The position numbers and the translations under genes were made by a program. This document shows, piece after piece, positions 13,288 through 21,199 of a DNA stretch of 37,032 bases. A model generated the notes under the pieces. It had not been told where the DNA came from and made no database searches. It saw nothing but the letters and a program-made list of their open reading frames with translations. How positions within the stretch are numbered: position 1 is the stretch's first letter; every line of letters starts with the position of its first letter. The DNA is from an uncultured Acholeplasmatales bacterium (GTDB lineage Bacteria > Bacillota_I > Bacilli_A > Acholeplasmatales > Anaeroplasmataceae), in contig CAJOQR010000125.1 of assembly GCA_905236965.1 (NCBI GenBank), positions 1 through 37,032 on the forward strand. The letters are read 5' to 3'.

Positions 13288-13320
13288 ATGGCTCACTCAT
13301 GTGAGCCATTTTATTTTTAT
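13288..13320 (+). terminator. Rho-independent terminator
   Basis: atggctcac-tcat-gtgagccat 9-bp stem followed by tttatttttatt. Confidence 0.88.
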
Positions 13321-13480: not shown

Positions 13481-16400
13481 ATGGCAAACACTGGTTTAAA
13501 GGAATATAATAAATTTTTAGATTATAAAATAGGCGGAATATCTTTAAAAATTAATTTATCAAATGTTAATAAAAACTTTCTTTTTATATCACCTTTAACA
13601 TTACAAATCGGTAAAATGCCATTAGATATAAGCATTATATATAATGATTTATGTAAGGATAATATAGAATATTTTGGAAAAGGAATAAGATCAACTTTAT
13701 ATAAAAAAATAAATGAAATATCAAATGATGAATGGGAAGTTGAAAATCCTGATTTTACAGTTGATACATTTAATAAAATAGAAGATTTTAAATATTTAAA
13801 TTATGAAAATAGGAATGTAATAATAAAAGAATATGTATCAGAAGATTTTAATTATAAATTATATGATAAAGAAGGAAATGTAATAGAATATAATGATAAT
13901 TCAAATAATTATTTTAAGTATGTAAATATTATAGGTGAATCAAAATATTTAATTACATATCCTGCTAATCAAATAATTTATAAAAATTCATTTAATGATA
14001 ATTTAACATTAAATATAACAAATAATAGAATAAATAATTGTTATTATAGAGATTCATCTTCAACAGATATATTATTTGAAACAGAATTAATATATGATAA
14101 TTTAAATAGATTAGAAGAAATAAAGATAAAAAAAGGAAATGAATATTTAAGAGATGAATCAATAATATATGGAAATAATTCATATACATTTATAGATAAT
14201 ATAAGTGGTAATAAAATAATAATAACAATAAATTCAAATTCAACTCTAATTGAAGAATATTTTTTAAATAATTTAATAGGAACAACAACAATAAATTATT
14301 ATATAAATAAAACAAAAGTAATAAATTCATTAGGACAAGAAATAATTTATTTGTTTTCAAATGAAGGATTGTTAATAACAGAATTAGAAGATAATATGGC
14401 AAAAGGATATGTATATAATAAGACATTTAAAGCACCAACACTTCTAACTAATGAATTTAGGGTTAAAAGTATAGATAGCTCGGTAACTAGAAAATCTTTA
14501 GGTACATTTACAACTTCAAATATAAATAAATCTGAATATACACAAACTATTGACTCTGATTTGAGTGAAATAATAGATAATTTATATCAATTAGAAGGAA
14601 CTGGAAATATATATAAAACAGTTACGATTGAAGGCACATCAAATGATTATTTGACTTTTTTGATATGGATGAAAGAAATGACAGTATCATCAAATTCAAG
14701 TGCTTTTATTGAATTGATGGTAAATTCAGATATTCAAAGAATTTATTTAAATGATTTAACAGTATGTAATAATTTTAGGATGATAACAGTAGGAATAAGA
14801 CCTAAAAAATCATATAGTAGTGTTAGAATGTTAATTCATTTAACAAATTGTACACTATTAATGGGAGGAATCCAATTAATAAAAAAAGGATTTGGAATAT
14901 TATATGAATATGATGAGCTTGGAAATGTAATAAAAAAAGAAGATAAGCTTGGAATATCATCATATGAATATAATTCAAATAATAAAATAATAAATGTATC
15001 AGATTATGTAGGAAATATTAAAAATATAGAATATAACCAAAATAATCAACAAGAGATAAATGGAACAAGATATGGAGTTTTAGAAAAAAATGAATATGAT
15101 ACATCAAATATTCATAATTTAATTAAAAAAACATATAAAACAATTGAAGAAGAATTTAGTGAAGAATATTTTTATTCAAATGGAAAAGATTTAACAAAAA
15201 CAAAAGATATATTTTCAAATGAAACATTTTATGATTATGATACATTTAAAAATATATCTAATATATTAAGATTAAATATAGATGTTAAAGAATTTAATTA
15301 TAATAATAAAAATTTATTATCGAGTATAATAAGAAATCCAGAAGATAATTATGAAGTAGCATCATATACATATGATAATTATTATAGAATTTCAACAATT
15401 ACTACAGCATCAAATTCAGTTTATAGCTTTACATATGATAATTATAATAATATATGCAATATAACTCTTGATGGAATATCATTAATTAATTTTACATATG
15501 ATGATAATCAAATGTTAACAAATTTAACATATCCAAATGGAGATTTTTATACAATATGCTATTCAAATAATTATAAAACAATATCATCAATATCTATCAA
15601 TAATATATTAGCATATGAATATACATATGATGTGGAATTAAGATTAACAGGAATATCAAATAATGATATAACAAAAACATATACTTATGATAATGATTCA
15701 AAAATTATAAATCAAGAAATAAATGGTAATTTAATAGAATATAAATATTATTTAGATGAATTAAAAATGATAATTGATCATATTGATAATAAGAATTTTT
15801 ATCAAATATATAATTCAAAAGAAATTGAATTAGGGGCAAATCCTTTAATGTTAGAAAAATATGTTATAAATAATTCAAATCTTTTTATAACAACATTTTC
15901 AAATCCAATAAAGGTAAATAATGAAGAAAATTTTTGTTGTGCAAAAAATAAAAATAATATAATATTACCGATATTATCATCAGGTGGAAATACATATAAT
16001 TGTATTGAAAATGTTGGAGGAGTAAATGCATACTTACCTGGAAAGAATTCGAAATATTTAAGTTATGATTGTAATGGAACGACACCAGAAGGAAGCGGAA
16101 TTGCGATAGGAATGTGGATAAAACCATTTACCATAAATGATAGTTATATATTTATGATAAGAAGGTTTAATTTAAGTACTCCTGCAATATATGCAAGATT
16201 ATTAAATGGAAGTATAAAAATATATGTAGAAAACAATCAAGGAACAAGAATTAATATAATAACAACAGATAGCTTAATAACAAATAATGAGTGGACATTT
16301 ATAGCATTAAATTATTATGTAGATTATATAGAAGAAGATGATTATGGATTTGAAATATATTGTTATGAATTTTATATAAGAAATAAAAAATATACATATT

Positions 16401-18853
16401 ATAGTCAAAGTCAAGATTATAATATATCAAATTTAAATAATTTAAGATATCATTTAGGATATCAAATGATAAATGGAAATATATCAAATGTTTTCAATGG
16501 ATATATAACAGGACTAATAATGTCAAATGGCAATTATTTAAATACAATATTTTTAAAACAATATTATATAGAATCATTTTATGATTTAATAAATAAAGCT
16601 AAAACTAAAGCAGTAGATTATTCTACTCATACATATTTTCATGAATCAGGAATATATCCAAATTATGATATTTTATCACTTAGAGGAAATTTAGAAAGTA
16701 AAAATGGTTTAAGACCAAAAATATATGACATACCACAAATAAATGGAGAATATATAAGTTCAAGCTTTAATTATAATAATATAAAAAATAGTTATGTATA
16801 TACTCCAAAATCACTTTTAGGATATGAATTAAATTATAGAGATTATGGAACAATTATATTAAGTTTTATAACATATGATACATTATTAAAAGAAACTATA
16901 TTAGAATTACATGATTCTAATAGAAAAATAGAAGTATATATTTTAAATGATTATTTATATTTAAATTTGTTTGGGACAACATATAATTTAAATTATTATG
17001 TTTCAAAAAATGCATGGCATAGATTAGGGATAAGCTTTTCATATGATGAGCCAACAATTTCATTTAGACTTTTTTATGATAATAATTCAACATTAAAAAC
17101 AAAAAATATATCACAATTAGCATCAATAAAGACATTATATATAGGTAGTCAAGAAGAAAATAGTAATGCAAGTAATTTGTTGTTTGGACAAATAGCTGAT
17201 GTTTTATTGAATGAGGCATATATAACATATTCAACATTTAATGCAATAACAAATACAACGTTTGCTATATCAAAGGCATTAGAATATGATTCATTAGGAA
17301 GAAAAATAAAAGAAATAATAAATTATGATGGAACTGAGGTATTAATAAATACACATACATATGATAAAATGAGAATAGTATCTGAAAATTTATCAGGTGT
17401 AGGTAGAACTTATAATTATAATGCTAGAAATTATATATCATCAATTATAGATTCAACATATGGAAATCATACATATACATATGATGATAGAGGATATTTA
17501 GCAAGTGATAATAATATAAATTATGCATATGATGGAAATGGAAATATATTAAGTGCAGGATCGATGCAATTTATATATGATTCAAATTATAAAGATAGAT
17601 TAAATTCAGTTGGTGGAATAAATATTACATATGCATCAAATAATCCATATTATCCTATATCATATAAAAATATGACATTTACATATGAAGGAAGAAAATT
17701 AAAAGAAGTAGGATTACCTAATAATAAAAAAGTAATATTTTATTATGATGATGAAGGAATAAGATATAAAAAAGAAATAAAAGAAAATAATGTTGTAACT
17801 AAAACAATATTGTATTATTATGATAATAAGAGATTATTATGTGAAATAGATGGAAATGTAAAAAGAAATTATTTATATGATAATGAAGAATCAATATATG
17901 GATATGTAGAAGGAGAAATGTCGTATTATTATATAAAAGATTCACTTGGAATAATACATGGAATAAAAAACATATCAGGACAAATAGTAGCATCATATAC
18001 ATATGATGCCTATGGAAATATAATAAATGAGACAGGAACATTAAATAATAATATAAAATATAAAGGATATTATTATGATGAAGAAATAGGAATGTATTAT
18101 TTATTATCAAGATATTATTATCCAGAATGGAGAAGATTCTTAACACCAGATAATTATACTTATTTAGATTTTGAAGATATAAATGATTTAAATCTATTTG
18201 CTTATTGCAATAATAATCCTATTATGTATTCTGATCCTGAGGGCCACCTTTTTATAAGTGCCATGGTTATTGGAGGAATTGTTGGCTTTATAACTTGTGC
18301 AGGTGTTAGTGCTATATCTCAAGGTATAACTAGTGGTTGGAATAATATAAATGGATGGCAGGTTCTTTTTGATGGCGTAATTGGAGGAGTTAGTGGCATA
18401 TTATCATCATCAGGTATTGGAGCTATTGCATCTAGAATAATTTCAGGATGCATTGGATTTGCAGGAAGTGTAGGGGGAGATTTAATTTCATCAGGAGGTG
18501 ATTGGGAATCAATTAATTGGTGTAAGGCTGCATCTTTAGCTATTGCTAATGCTATAATTTCTTGGAAAGGTGGAGCACAAAATTCCAAAAATATAGGTGA
18601 AAAACTTCTTAATGATAAAGAAGTAAATAGAACATTTAAAATTTTATATGATGCAACTAATAATTATATTTCTGGTTCGATTTCAAAAAGAGGGTTTGCT
18701 GGAGTTTTTAATTTGTATGGTAAGCAGTTTATTAATTCAGTTACTGATGCTATGCCAGCTATAATAGTTAAATCAACAGCAAATGGACTTGCAAAAAATA
18801 CAATATCTTCGATTGCAAGTGGATTAGCCAATTTTATTGATTATCATGTATGA
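13481..18853 (+). CDS. Rhs/YD-repeat polymorphic-toxin-type protein with embedded LamG/concanavalin-like domains and a Gly-rich C-terminal tip
   Basis: Many YD repeats (YTYDNYYRIS, FTYDNYNNI, YTYDDRGYLASDNNINYAYDGNGNIL); Rhs core end YYYDEEIGMYYLLSRYYYPEWRRFLTPD...NLFAYCNNNPIMYSDPEGH; variable C-terminus after PEGH; no N-terminal signal peptide. Confidence 0.92.
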   Translation: MANTGLKEYNKFLDYKIGGISLKINLSNVNKNFLFISPLTLQIGKMPLDISIIYNDLCKDNIEYFGKGIRSTLYKKINEISNDEWEVENPDFTVDTFNKIEDFKYLNYENRNVIIKEYVSEDFNYKLYDKEGNVIEYNDNSNNYFKYVNIIGESKYLITYPANQIIYKNSFNDNLTLNITNNRINNCYYRDSSSTDILFETELIYDNLNRLEEIKIKKGNEYLRDESIIYGNNSYTFIDNISGNKIIITINSNSTLIEEYFLNNLIGTTTINYYINKTKVINSLGQEIIYLFSNEGLLITELEDNMAKGYVYNKTFKAPTLLTNEFRVKSIDSSVTRKSLGTFTTSNINKSEYTQTIDSDLSEIIDNLYQLEGTGNIYKTVTIEGTSNDYLTFLIWMKEMTVSSNSSAFIELMVNSDIQRIYLNDLTVCNNFRMITVGIRPKKSYSSVRMLIHLTNCTLLMGGIQLIKKGFGILYEYDELGNVIKKEDKLGISSYEYNSNNKIINVSDYVGNIKNIEYNQNNQQEINGTRYGVLEKNEYDTSNIHNLIKKTYKTIEEEFSEEYFYSNGKDLTKTKDIFSNETFYDYDTFKNISNILRLNIDVKEFNYNNKNLLSSIIRNPEDNYEVASYTYDNYYRISTITTASNSVYSFTYDNYNNICNITLDGISLINFTYDDNQMLTNLTYPNGDFYTICYSNNYKTISSISINNILAYEYTYDVELRLTGISNNDITKTYTYDNDSKIINQEINGNLIEYKYYLDELKMIIDHIDNKNFYQIYNSKEIELGANPLMLEKYVINNSNLFITTFSNPIKVNNEENFCCAKNKNNIILPILSSGGNTYNCIENVGGVNAYLPGKNSKYLSYDCNGTTPEGSGIAIGMWIKPFTINDSYIFMIRRFNLSTPAIYARLLNGSIKIYVENNQGTRINIITTDSLITNNEWTFIALNYYVDYIEEDDYGFEIYCYEFYIRNKKYTYYSQSQDYNISNLNNLRYHLGYQMINGNISNVFNGYITGLIMSNGNYLNTIFLKQYYIESFYDLINKAKTKAVDYSTHTYFHESGIYPNYDILSLRGNLESKNGLRPKIYDIPQINGEYISSSFNYNNIKNSYVYTPKSLLGYELNYRDYGTIILSFITYDTLLKETILELHDSNRKIEVYILNDYLYLNLFGTTYNLNYYVSKNAWHRLGISFSYDEPTISFRLFYDNNSTLKTKNISQLASIKTLYIGSQEENSNASNLLFGQIADVLLNEAYITYSTFNAITNTTFAISKALEYDSLGRKIKEIINYDGTEVLINTHTYDKMRIVSENLSGVGRTYNYNARNYISSIIDSTYGNHTYTYDDRGYLASDNNINYAYDGNGNILSAGSMQFIYDSNYKDRLNSVGGINITYASNNPYYPISYKNMTFTYEGRKLKEVGLPNNKKVIFYYDDEGIRYKKEIKENNVVTKTILYYYDNKRLLCEIDGNVKRNYLYDNEESIYGYVEGEMSYYYIKDSLGIIHGIKNISGQIVASYTYDAYGNIINETGTLNNNIKYKGYYYDEEIGMYYLLSRYYYPEWRRFLTPDNYTYLDFEDINDLNLFAYCNNNPIMYSDPEGHLFISAMVIGGIVGFITCAGVSAISQGITSGWNNINGWQVLFDGVIGGVSGILSSSGIGAIASRIISGCIGFAGSVGGDLISSGGDWESINWCKAASLAIANAIISWKGGAQNSKNIGEKLLNDKEVNRTFKILYDATNNYISGSISKRGFAGVFNLYGKQFINSVTDAMPAIIVKSTANGLAKNTISSIASGLANFIDYHV

Positions 18854-19260
18854 TAGATGGAATTAAATTATTATTAGCGAAAAATAGCTGGGTTTGGGTG
18901 CTTTGGCTTTGTTTGTATTATAGTGTATTAAATTACCAATCATTAGGAGTTCTTGATCTTAAAATAGAATTCTACTTGAAATATTGTGTTAAAAATAAGT
19001 TTTTAAATAAGTTATTCTTTAAAGATTCTGATTCTACAATCCTCATTTTTGGTGCTATATACACAATTATACTTTTTTTTGTTGCGCTGTTATATTCGAT
19101 TATTACTGTTGCATGTTATTGTTTAGATATAGAAATATTTAGTTTAAAATTTACATTTTATTTTTTTCCTGTTATATATGTCTATATACCATTTATTTTT
19201 ATGGTATATTTGGATATATTTCAAAGAGATGATTACTACAAAAGAAAAAAAAGAAAATAA
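18850..19260 (+). CDS. Integral membrane protein, candidate cognate immunity protein of the Rhs tip
   Basis: ATGA overlap with the Rhs stop (18850-18853); 136 aa with several hydrophobic segments and a basic C-terminus (YYKRKKRK). Confidence 0.55.
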   Translation: MIDGIKLLLAKNSWVWVLWLCLYYSVLNYQSLGVLDLKIEFYLKYCVKNKFLNKLFFKDSDSTILIFGAIYTIILFFVALLYSIITVACYCLDIEIFSLKFTFYFFPVIYVYIPFIFMVYLDIFQRDDYYKRKKRK

Positions 19261-19358: not shown

Positions 19359-19496
19359 GCAATTTTCGGTGGAGTAGGATACATTAGTGGTTTTGCAACT
19401 TTAAGAATTCCTTTTGCTGGTGGCAGAGTAGGCTTAAAATATAGTGCGATAAGATTTGGAATTGAAAAAATATTAGATTTACCAAAGTATTTTTAA
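19359..19496 (+). pseudogene. Orphan C-terminal fragment resembling an Rhs tip
   Basis: Frame reads AIFGGVGYISGFATLRIPFAGGRVGLKYSAIRFGIEKILDLPKYF*, with no start or SD and an in-frame TAA at 19344-19346. Confidence 0.45.
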
Positions 19497-19511: not shown

Positions 19512-19975
19512 ATGAAAATAAATATATTTAAAGGTTTTTCTTTAAGGATTTTGTTTAATGTTGATATATTTATGTCACCATTTTTGATAATGGCTATTAT
19601 TTTATATATTGTTAAAAGTGATTATATCCTATTAACTGTTGTTATTATATTATATATACTCATATCTGCTATAGTTTTATTTATATCATATGTTTTTTTA
19701 GAAAAAAATATAATTATAAATATATTTATTTTGAAGAAGAATCATTTTTGTTGATAAATAGGAATGGAGGAATTATTGATTTTGAAAATTCAAAAATATA
19801 TATTGATAACCCAATTTTAGGATTATTAATATCACCTATTCATCTTGTATTATATTATGAATTAAAATCTGATTTTGAAATAAAAGAAAAAAGTATAGAG
19901 TATACAAGGGTATATTTGACTATTGGAGATTACATAAAATTAAAAAAAGCAAAAAACAAATATGTAGAATCGTGA
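19512..19975 (+). pseudogene. Membrane protein interrupted by a -1 frame change (ORFs 19512..19754 and 19748..19975)
   Basis: The second ORF's frame is open upstream (RKKYNYKYIYFEEESFLLINRNGGIIDFENS...), so the pair reads as one protein joined at the T7/A7 tracts near 19693-19708. The second ORF begins only with TTG and lacks an obvious SD. Confidence 0.55.
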
Positions 19976-20263: not shown

Positions 20264-21199
20264 ATGAAAAAATCAATTGATACTCAATATGGAAAATTAG
20301 ATTATGTTGAATCATTTTTTACTGGTAAAGTTGATATTTATTTAAATGGAAAACAAGCAATTAAAAAAAAGAAAAAAGAATTTCAAATAGAGACTACTAA
20401 TAATACAAATGATTTAAATACTAGTTTAATTGATATTCATATTTTTGGGAGTTTTATATTTGGAGTTAAGGCAATCTTAAATGGACATTCTTATACAATT
20501 TATGAAAAAGCTAAATGGTATGAATATTTAATTATGATATTATTTATCATTTTAACTATAATATGGGGAAATGTTCCTACTTTATGTAAAATATTACCTA
20601 TTGTTGGTGGAACTATAGGTGGATTTGTTGCTGGATTTATTAATTTTTTAGGCTTTGCTTTAGCAAGGAAAACTGATAAATCATTAATAAAATTAATAAG
20701 CATAATTGGTTCTGGATTATTATCATTTTTCACCTGCTTTTTAATCGCTTTTTGCATTTTATATCCTGGATTAAAGGGTAAAAAATGTTAATGTTGAAAA
20801 CAATGCTGCAAGAGTAATTAATATTGCAGAAAAAGAAACATATTACGCTTATGTTGGTGATTCTTTACACCATTTTATCAAGGGGCTAGTGAAAAATACA
20901 ATTTTGATTCTACTGATAATAAAGTTGTAAGTGTTGATAGAGCTGGATACATAAAATGTAAAAAAAAAGGTAGTGCTAATATTTATGTATATCGTGATTG
21001 GAGTTTTTATGCATATGTTAGTATAAATGTAATAGAAAAACCTGACATTGATTATAATTATGATGAGAATTTAGAAAATGTTGAATTTTCTTATGTTGAT
21101 ATGATTCAAGGAATAAAATTAGAAGGAAATAAAAAATATTATTTAATAGTTCCTAATTATTTTACTAGTGATTATTATATAATTAGAAAAAAATCATAA
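20264..21199 (+). pseudogene. Membrane protein (intact N-terminal ORF 20264..20791) with a frame-disrupted extracellular Big-2-like C-terminal region
   Basis: After the stop at 20791, another frame reads NVNVENNAARVINIAEKETYYAYVGDS, then a third reads FTPFYQGASEKYNFDSTDNKVVSVDRAGYIKCKKKGSANIYVYRDWSFYAYVSINVIEKP...IIRKKS* (ends 21199). Confidence 0.6.

Follow-up and report, generated by a model that had tools for sequence, protein, structure and literature searches.

The locus described here raises the question of what is encoded by a long Rhs-type gene whose end overlaps the start of a small membrane-protein gene, and of how the C-terminal tip of the Rhs protein might act. The locus lies in a 37,032-nucleotide stretch of DNA from an uncultured Acholeplasmatales bacterium (Anaeroplasmataceae; contig CAJOQR010000125.1), which was analysed as a whole and is referred to below as the window. 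Its features are as follows.

13288-13309, + strand: terminator-like hairpin (terminator search) that closes the upstream operon and marks the island's left edge
13481-18853, + strand: Rhs protein P0001, complete, 1790 aa, with a conserved N-terminus and no signal peptide seen by eye
16061-16315, + strand: possible LamG/ConA-like domain, P0001 residues 861-945, below the Pfam cut-off (E 0.0093)
18002-18247, + strand: Rhs-associated core, residues 1508-1589 (NCBIfam TIGR03696, E 1e-18)
18149-18151, + strand: first Asp of a presumed autoprotease pair (LTPD), 28 residues ahead of the second
18233-18235, + strand: second Asp of the pair (DPEG), with tip release presumably just after it, as in the Tse5 precedent (PMC10684867)
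18248-18592, + strand: N-terminal half of the tip, about residues 1-115, hydrophobic, Gly-rich and predicted helical, common to tips with several different C-terminal halves
18593-18850, + strand: C-terminal half of the tip, about 86 aa, FNLYG type, with few conserved polar residues (S146, R148, N155 and Y157)
18850-19260, + strand: candidate immunity protein P0002, 136 aa, with three hydropathy-predicted membrane segments
19359-19493, + strand: remnant of a different Rhs tip, of which the final 45 codons are left, sharing 46% identity with the ends of tips in G028 and G029
19512-19972, + strand: frameshifted membrane immunity gene of a displaced cassette (ORFs 19512-19754 and 19748-19975; E 7e-9 to the L043 immunity ORF)
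20264-20791, + strand: 175-aa membrane protein at the end of the island, with a weak DUF613 match
20855-20872, + strand: terminator-like hairpin (terminator search), right edge of the island

The initial annotation had described a complete Rhs-type gene followed directly by a membrane-protein gene, and both descriptions were confirmed. The 1790-aa frame is intact, its ATG is preceded by the ribosome-binding-site-like AAGAAAGGTG, and homologous scaffolds, whose open frames reach 1,844 aa, align to it from residues 1-3. RHS repeats were detected with Pfam (PF05593, E 5.5e-8) in addition to the TIGR03696 core, and solved Rhs and teneurin-like chains in the PDB aligned to P0001, the Rhs structures with E values down to 8e-28. 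The weak LamG-like match within the shell is possibly a binding domain. A single copy of the gene was found in the 1.5-Mb, 83%-complete genome, and scaffolds matching its N-terminal 250 residues occur in 16 genomes of the family, those inspected sharing the same start. In six related genomes a protein of ~300 aa is encoded directly upstream of the Rhs start, overlapping the Rhs gene in some (L114 573-1508, L115 562-1479, L116 2174-3109, L117 586-1488, L118 563-1480 and L121 2071-2973), and in most of these six a gene for ~195 aa lies further upstream; the ~300-aa gene is absent from the window. The L116 protein, the sole one scanned, has a nucleotidyltransferase domain (PF01909/PF18765), and the ~300-aa protein is possibly a regulator of Rhs expression.

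The core of P0001 ends in NLFAYCNNNPIMYSDPEGH at residue 1589 (window position 18247). Near this end both aspartates of the DPxG...DPxG pair are present, the first in a D-N-Y-T motif so that the first DPxG is not kept. A search pattern that demands the first Asp matched 43 family cores; the two residues are 28 apart in 39 of these and 27 apart in four, as against the usual 22-23. In Tse5, whose core encloses and cuts the tip, the spacing is 23 (PMC10684867), and residues 1487-1588 of P0001 align to the Tse5 core. By analogy with known Rhs structures, the tip would lie inside the YD-repeat shell and, as in Tse5, would be cut loose after DPEGH by the paired aspartates.

The tip comprises the 201 aa after DPEGH (18248-18850). 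The initial annotation placed about 200 aa here, ending in ANFIDYHV, which proved correct, although its start at 18240 was a few bases early. The sequence is hydrophobic and Gly/Ser/Ile-rich, as had been described, and the absence of recognised enzyme motifs was upheld when known domains were searched, no domain, toxic or non-toxic, being matched. Nothing was found for the tip in Pfam, NCBIfam, PADLOC or the PDB, or in phages; single-sequence scans of genome and viral contigs gave nothing, and neither did an alignment scan of viral contigs. An alignment profile scan of genome contigs, by comparison, recovered relatives in two uncultured Anaeroplasma MAGs, Acholeplasma oculi ATCC 27350, Paracholeplasma vituli and a Clostridia MAG, the two Anaeroplasma contigs (G021:C10 and G022:C13) being placed in the genus of the window by genome search. 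The host is accordingly Anaeroplasma-like and belongs to the Mollicutes. The eight close relatives span three taxonomic families at 42-58% identity, and wider profile matches were obtained in 13 of 395 genomes of the class.

In the C-terminal half of the tip, alignment of the relatives showed no conserved His, Asp or Glu, the invariant residues being Ser, Arg, Gly, Asn, Tyr, Leu and Pro. Seven glycine-zipper-type motifs were counted in the tip against a shuffle mean of 4.0; this number was reached in 207 of 2000 shuffles and is not clearly above what composition gives. The last 80 residues have average hydropathy (KD 0.00). We rejected the hydropathy of this segment as a divider of tip types, since it separated them poorly (rho 0.33, p 0.018). 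AlphaFold predicted helices only, in a poor model (mean pLDDT 48.9) for which Foldseek returned nothing significant (best E 0.5), and the models of tip and partner were too weak for use.

The partner gene begins within the ATGA that it shares with the Rhs stop (18850-18853), and the 136-aa product with its three predicted segments fits the membrane protein originally described. It had also been expected that homologous tips would be paired with homologues of P0002. This expectation held in part: each of the eight close tip relatives is followed, on the same strand, by an ORF for a small membrane protein, whereas the link of P0002 itself to these proteins is weak, though above chance. The relatives' partners are connected among themselves by pairwise z scores of 14 (L011-L088), 8.7 (L012-L088), 8.6 (L010-L012), 6.2 (L091-L089), 5.6 (L099-L091) and 4.2 (L090-L091). 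P0002 joins the set weakly through the A. oculi and P. vituli proteins (z 5.7 and 5.5 to L088 and L089); apart from two near-identical proteins, its resemblance to the relatives is marginal. Its score of 77 with the A. oculi protein was reached in none of 5000 shuffles (fitted p 3e-4); it scored 56 with the family member L091 and at most 48 with unrelated next-ORF proteins. Identities of the relatives' partners to P0002 are 12-21%. No P0002 homologue was found by single-sequence search of the 55 genomes of the family, and the profile-profile score against the relatives was reached by 1/150 and 3/150 shuffles. Because that score is weak, homology would rest on the pairwise scores to L088 and L089, and, judged from sequence, this appears to be the weakest link of the case. 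Immunity proteins of CDI ionophores share about 30% identity within groups (PMC11630599), and fast divergence of immunity proteins is, by this analogy, to be expected.

The same scaffold carries many other ends. The Rhs core was found in 27 of the 55 genomes of the family, with up to 11 matches per genome, and from loci of the family and the order we collected 59 pairs of tip and next ORF, of which 52 were non-redundant (tips at most 50% identical to each other). These 52 variable tips follow the same core boundary in related genomes. Three tips among ten proteins scanned contain nuclease-type domains, namely Tox-REase-9 (E 1.9e-13), AHH (9e-8) and GIY-YIG (4e-7), which shows that polymorphic toxins are carried on this scaffold; the next ORFs of all three are soluble. 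The proposal that the window tip acts on membranes was thus supported, an enzyme-free tip being followed by a membrane partner, whereas the nuclease-domain tips precede soluble ORFs. Membrane proteins follow 33 of the 52 tips (63%), compared with nine of 24 other window genes, so that a membrane partner, taken by itself, is a cue of limited specificity. The frequency was higher for tips matching the N-terminal half of the window tip (13/14, against 20/38 of the others; one-sided p 0.0066). Tips with membrane partners also have more zipper motifs (p 0.023) and fewer His residues in their last 100 aa (p 1.4e-4), the latter by a measure chosen after seeing the data. Across the set, tip similarity and next-gene similarity are correlated (Mantel r 0.375, 0/2000 permutations), a pattern that fits the expectation for putative cognate pairs. 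A second type of partner accompanies enzyme-free tips in four loci (L023 2399-2815, L031 2208-2666, L054 678-1364 and L098 2030-2620); in it, two or three membrane segments precede a portion that looks beta-rich by eye, and the L023 protein gave one weak bacterial PH match (E 0.011).

Downstream of P0002, the island contains the tip remnant and the frameshifted immunity gene listed above, and the 175-aa membrane protein at its end is possibly another orphan gene. Three terminator-like sites were found in the region, compared with 0.7 expected. Orphan cassettes consisting of a tip, a core stub and their own membrane gene occur among the relatives as well (L010, L011 and L102). Tip replacement that leaves such remnants is a known pattern of Rhs and CDI loci, and the remnants of other cassettes suggest that tips have been replaced and lost at this locus.

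Taken together, P0001 and P0002 are probably an antibacterial Rhs polymorphic toxin and its immunity protein, the tip being a putative membrane-depolarising domain that would work like Tse5. The gene anatomy, the family of tips, the membrane partners recurring as next genes and the absence of a recognised enzyme were all observed directly. We infer that the freed 201-aa hydrophobic tip would insert into the cytoplasmic membrane of a rival and dissipate its membrane potential, and that P0002, translated in step with the tip, would sit in the membrane of the producer and block insertion or assembly of the cognate tip.

Tse5 and Tsi5 of Pseudomonas aeruginosa (PMC9637101 and PMC10684867) resemble this pair in having an Rhs core with a terminal Asp pair, an adjoining membrane immunity protein, and a C-terminal tip with several hydrophobic helices and no enzyme prediction. 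The window system differs in its Mollicutes host, in an Asp spacing of 28 rather than 22-23 and in that a T6SS sheath was not found; a phmmer search with the tip against PDB chains including Tse5 gave no match to Tse5-CT up to E 10. Depolarising tips are also known in Bacillota from the glycine-zipper LXG toxins EsxX and TelE (PMC12744356 and PMC10434224), but these have an LXG domain and T7SSb delivery, neither of which was found for P0001. EsxX is neutralised from outside by the membrane proteins ExiCD, and soluble immunity exists as well (PMC12744356). The CDI ionophores of type 10 CdiA-CT (PMC11630599), compared by description, likewise combine helical depolarising tips with very diverse small membrane immunity proteins (~30% identity), although they sit on the CdiA stalk of Gram-negatives and have a separate entry domain and a two-helix CdiI. 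LrhA, a Listeria T7SSb substrate (PMC10327511), is a 1656-aa Rhs protein of Bacillota, and the gene after it is a candidate for immunity whose product has a TM segment. EssC and small partner proteins are encoded next to LrhA; none of these was seen near P0001.

The main rival to a depolarising tip is that the hydrophobic N-terminal half serves only to ferry the toxin through the membrane of the target, and that the final ~86 aa form a small unrecognised enzyme acting inside the cell. The Gly-rich half is indeed found joined to C-terminal halves of several kinds, and in L096 and L030 enzyme-like ends come after related hydrophobic stretches. We nevertheless consider this unlikely, as the C-terminal half has no conserved catalytic-type His, Asp or Glu, the AlphaFold prediction, of low confidence, is all-helical, and the partner is a membrane protein rather than a soluble one in all close relatives. 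If the tip is membrane-active, its neighbour could still be an accessory protein, an orphan gene or an entry factor instead of the immunity protein, and the weak resemblance of P0002 to the partners of other tips would agree with such a role. The ATGA overlap, the position conserved in every relative and the correlated divergence of tips and next genes (the Mantel test above) speak for immunity, and make the other roles quite improbable.

Cassette remnants just downstream might also mean that decay or truncation has deprived the tip of its toxin domain. This we rejected as very improbable: the reading frame is intact, the tips of close relatives in other genera hardly differ in length (200-204 aa), and residues of the C-terminal half are conserved among them. 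The least probable reading, which we give hardly any weight, is that P0001 acts on eukaryotic cells or another non-bacterial target like the C components of Tc toxins. TcC proteins share the Rhs core, and the host lineage is animal-dwelling, but the divergence of the tips matches that of the next genes paired with them, the sister tips include nuclease types known from antibacterial systems, and a TcA/TcB-like giant gene is not found beside P0001 within the window.

As regards export, known Rhs proteins travel by T6SS, T7SSb, Sec or T2SS (PMC10684867 and PMC10327511). No signal peptide was seen by eye in P0001 or in the homologous scaffolds inspected, which are about 1,550-1,840 aa long with a conserved N-terminus; Pfam found no LXG domain in P0001; and neither EssC above the cut-off nor a contractile sheath was detected in any of the 55 genomes. 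Partial EssC matches fell far below the cut-off and came chiefly from frames about as long as FtsK/SpoIIIE-like proteins (600-850 aa); they were rejected as T7SSb. Export is therefore unexplained, since signal peptide, EssC above the cut-off and contractile sheath were all not found; an incomplete genome (83%), an atypical signal or lysis are possible reasons for the gap. Penicillin-binding transpeptidases were found in 21 of the 55 genomes and not in the 83%-complete genome of the window. Thus the family seems to mix lineages with and without wall enzymes, and a cell wall may be missing from the producer and from rivals like it, which would leave the target of a membrane toxin directly exposed.

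On sequence comparison, the tip and its partner appear to form a new, unnamed tip-immunity family of Rhs polymorphic toxins that is not a sequence member of the Tse5 family. It would add to the few membrane-acting Rhs toxins, among which Tse5 is the sole characterised precedent of those compared here, and the cultured relatives A. oculi and P. vituli make the pair testable. A literature search, with most subscription journals outside its coverage, returned no paper joining Rhs toxins with Mollicutes or Acholeplasmatales. The present results place a large polymorphic toxin arsenal in the Acholeplasmatales, and the feature of greatest interest is the Mollicutes setting, in which the route of export is unexplained. 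It is conceivable, though on balance doubtful, that rivalry among wall-less Mollicutes (Anaeroplasma/Acholeplasma) is fought out with Rhs toxins of ~1,800 aa that form a large unrecognised set, that many of these toxins depolarise membranes, and that they are exported by none of the known Rhs routes.
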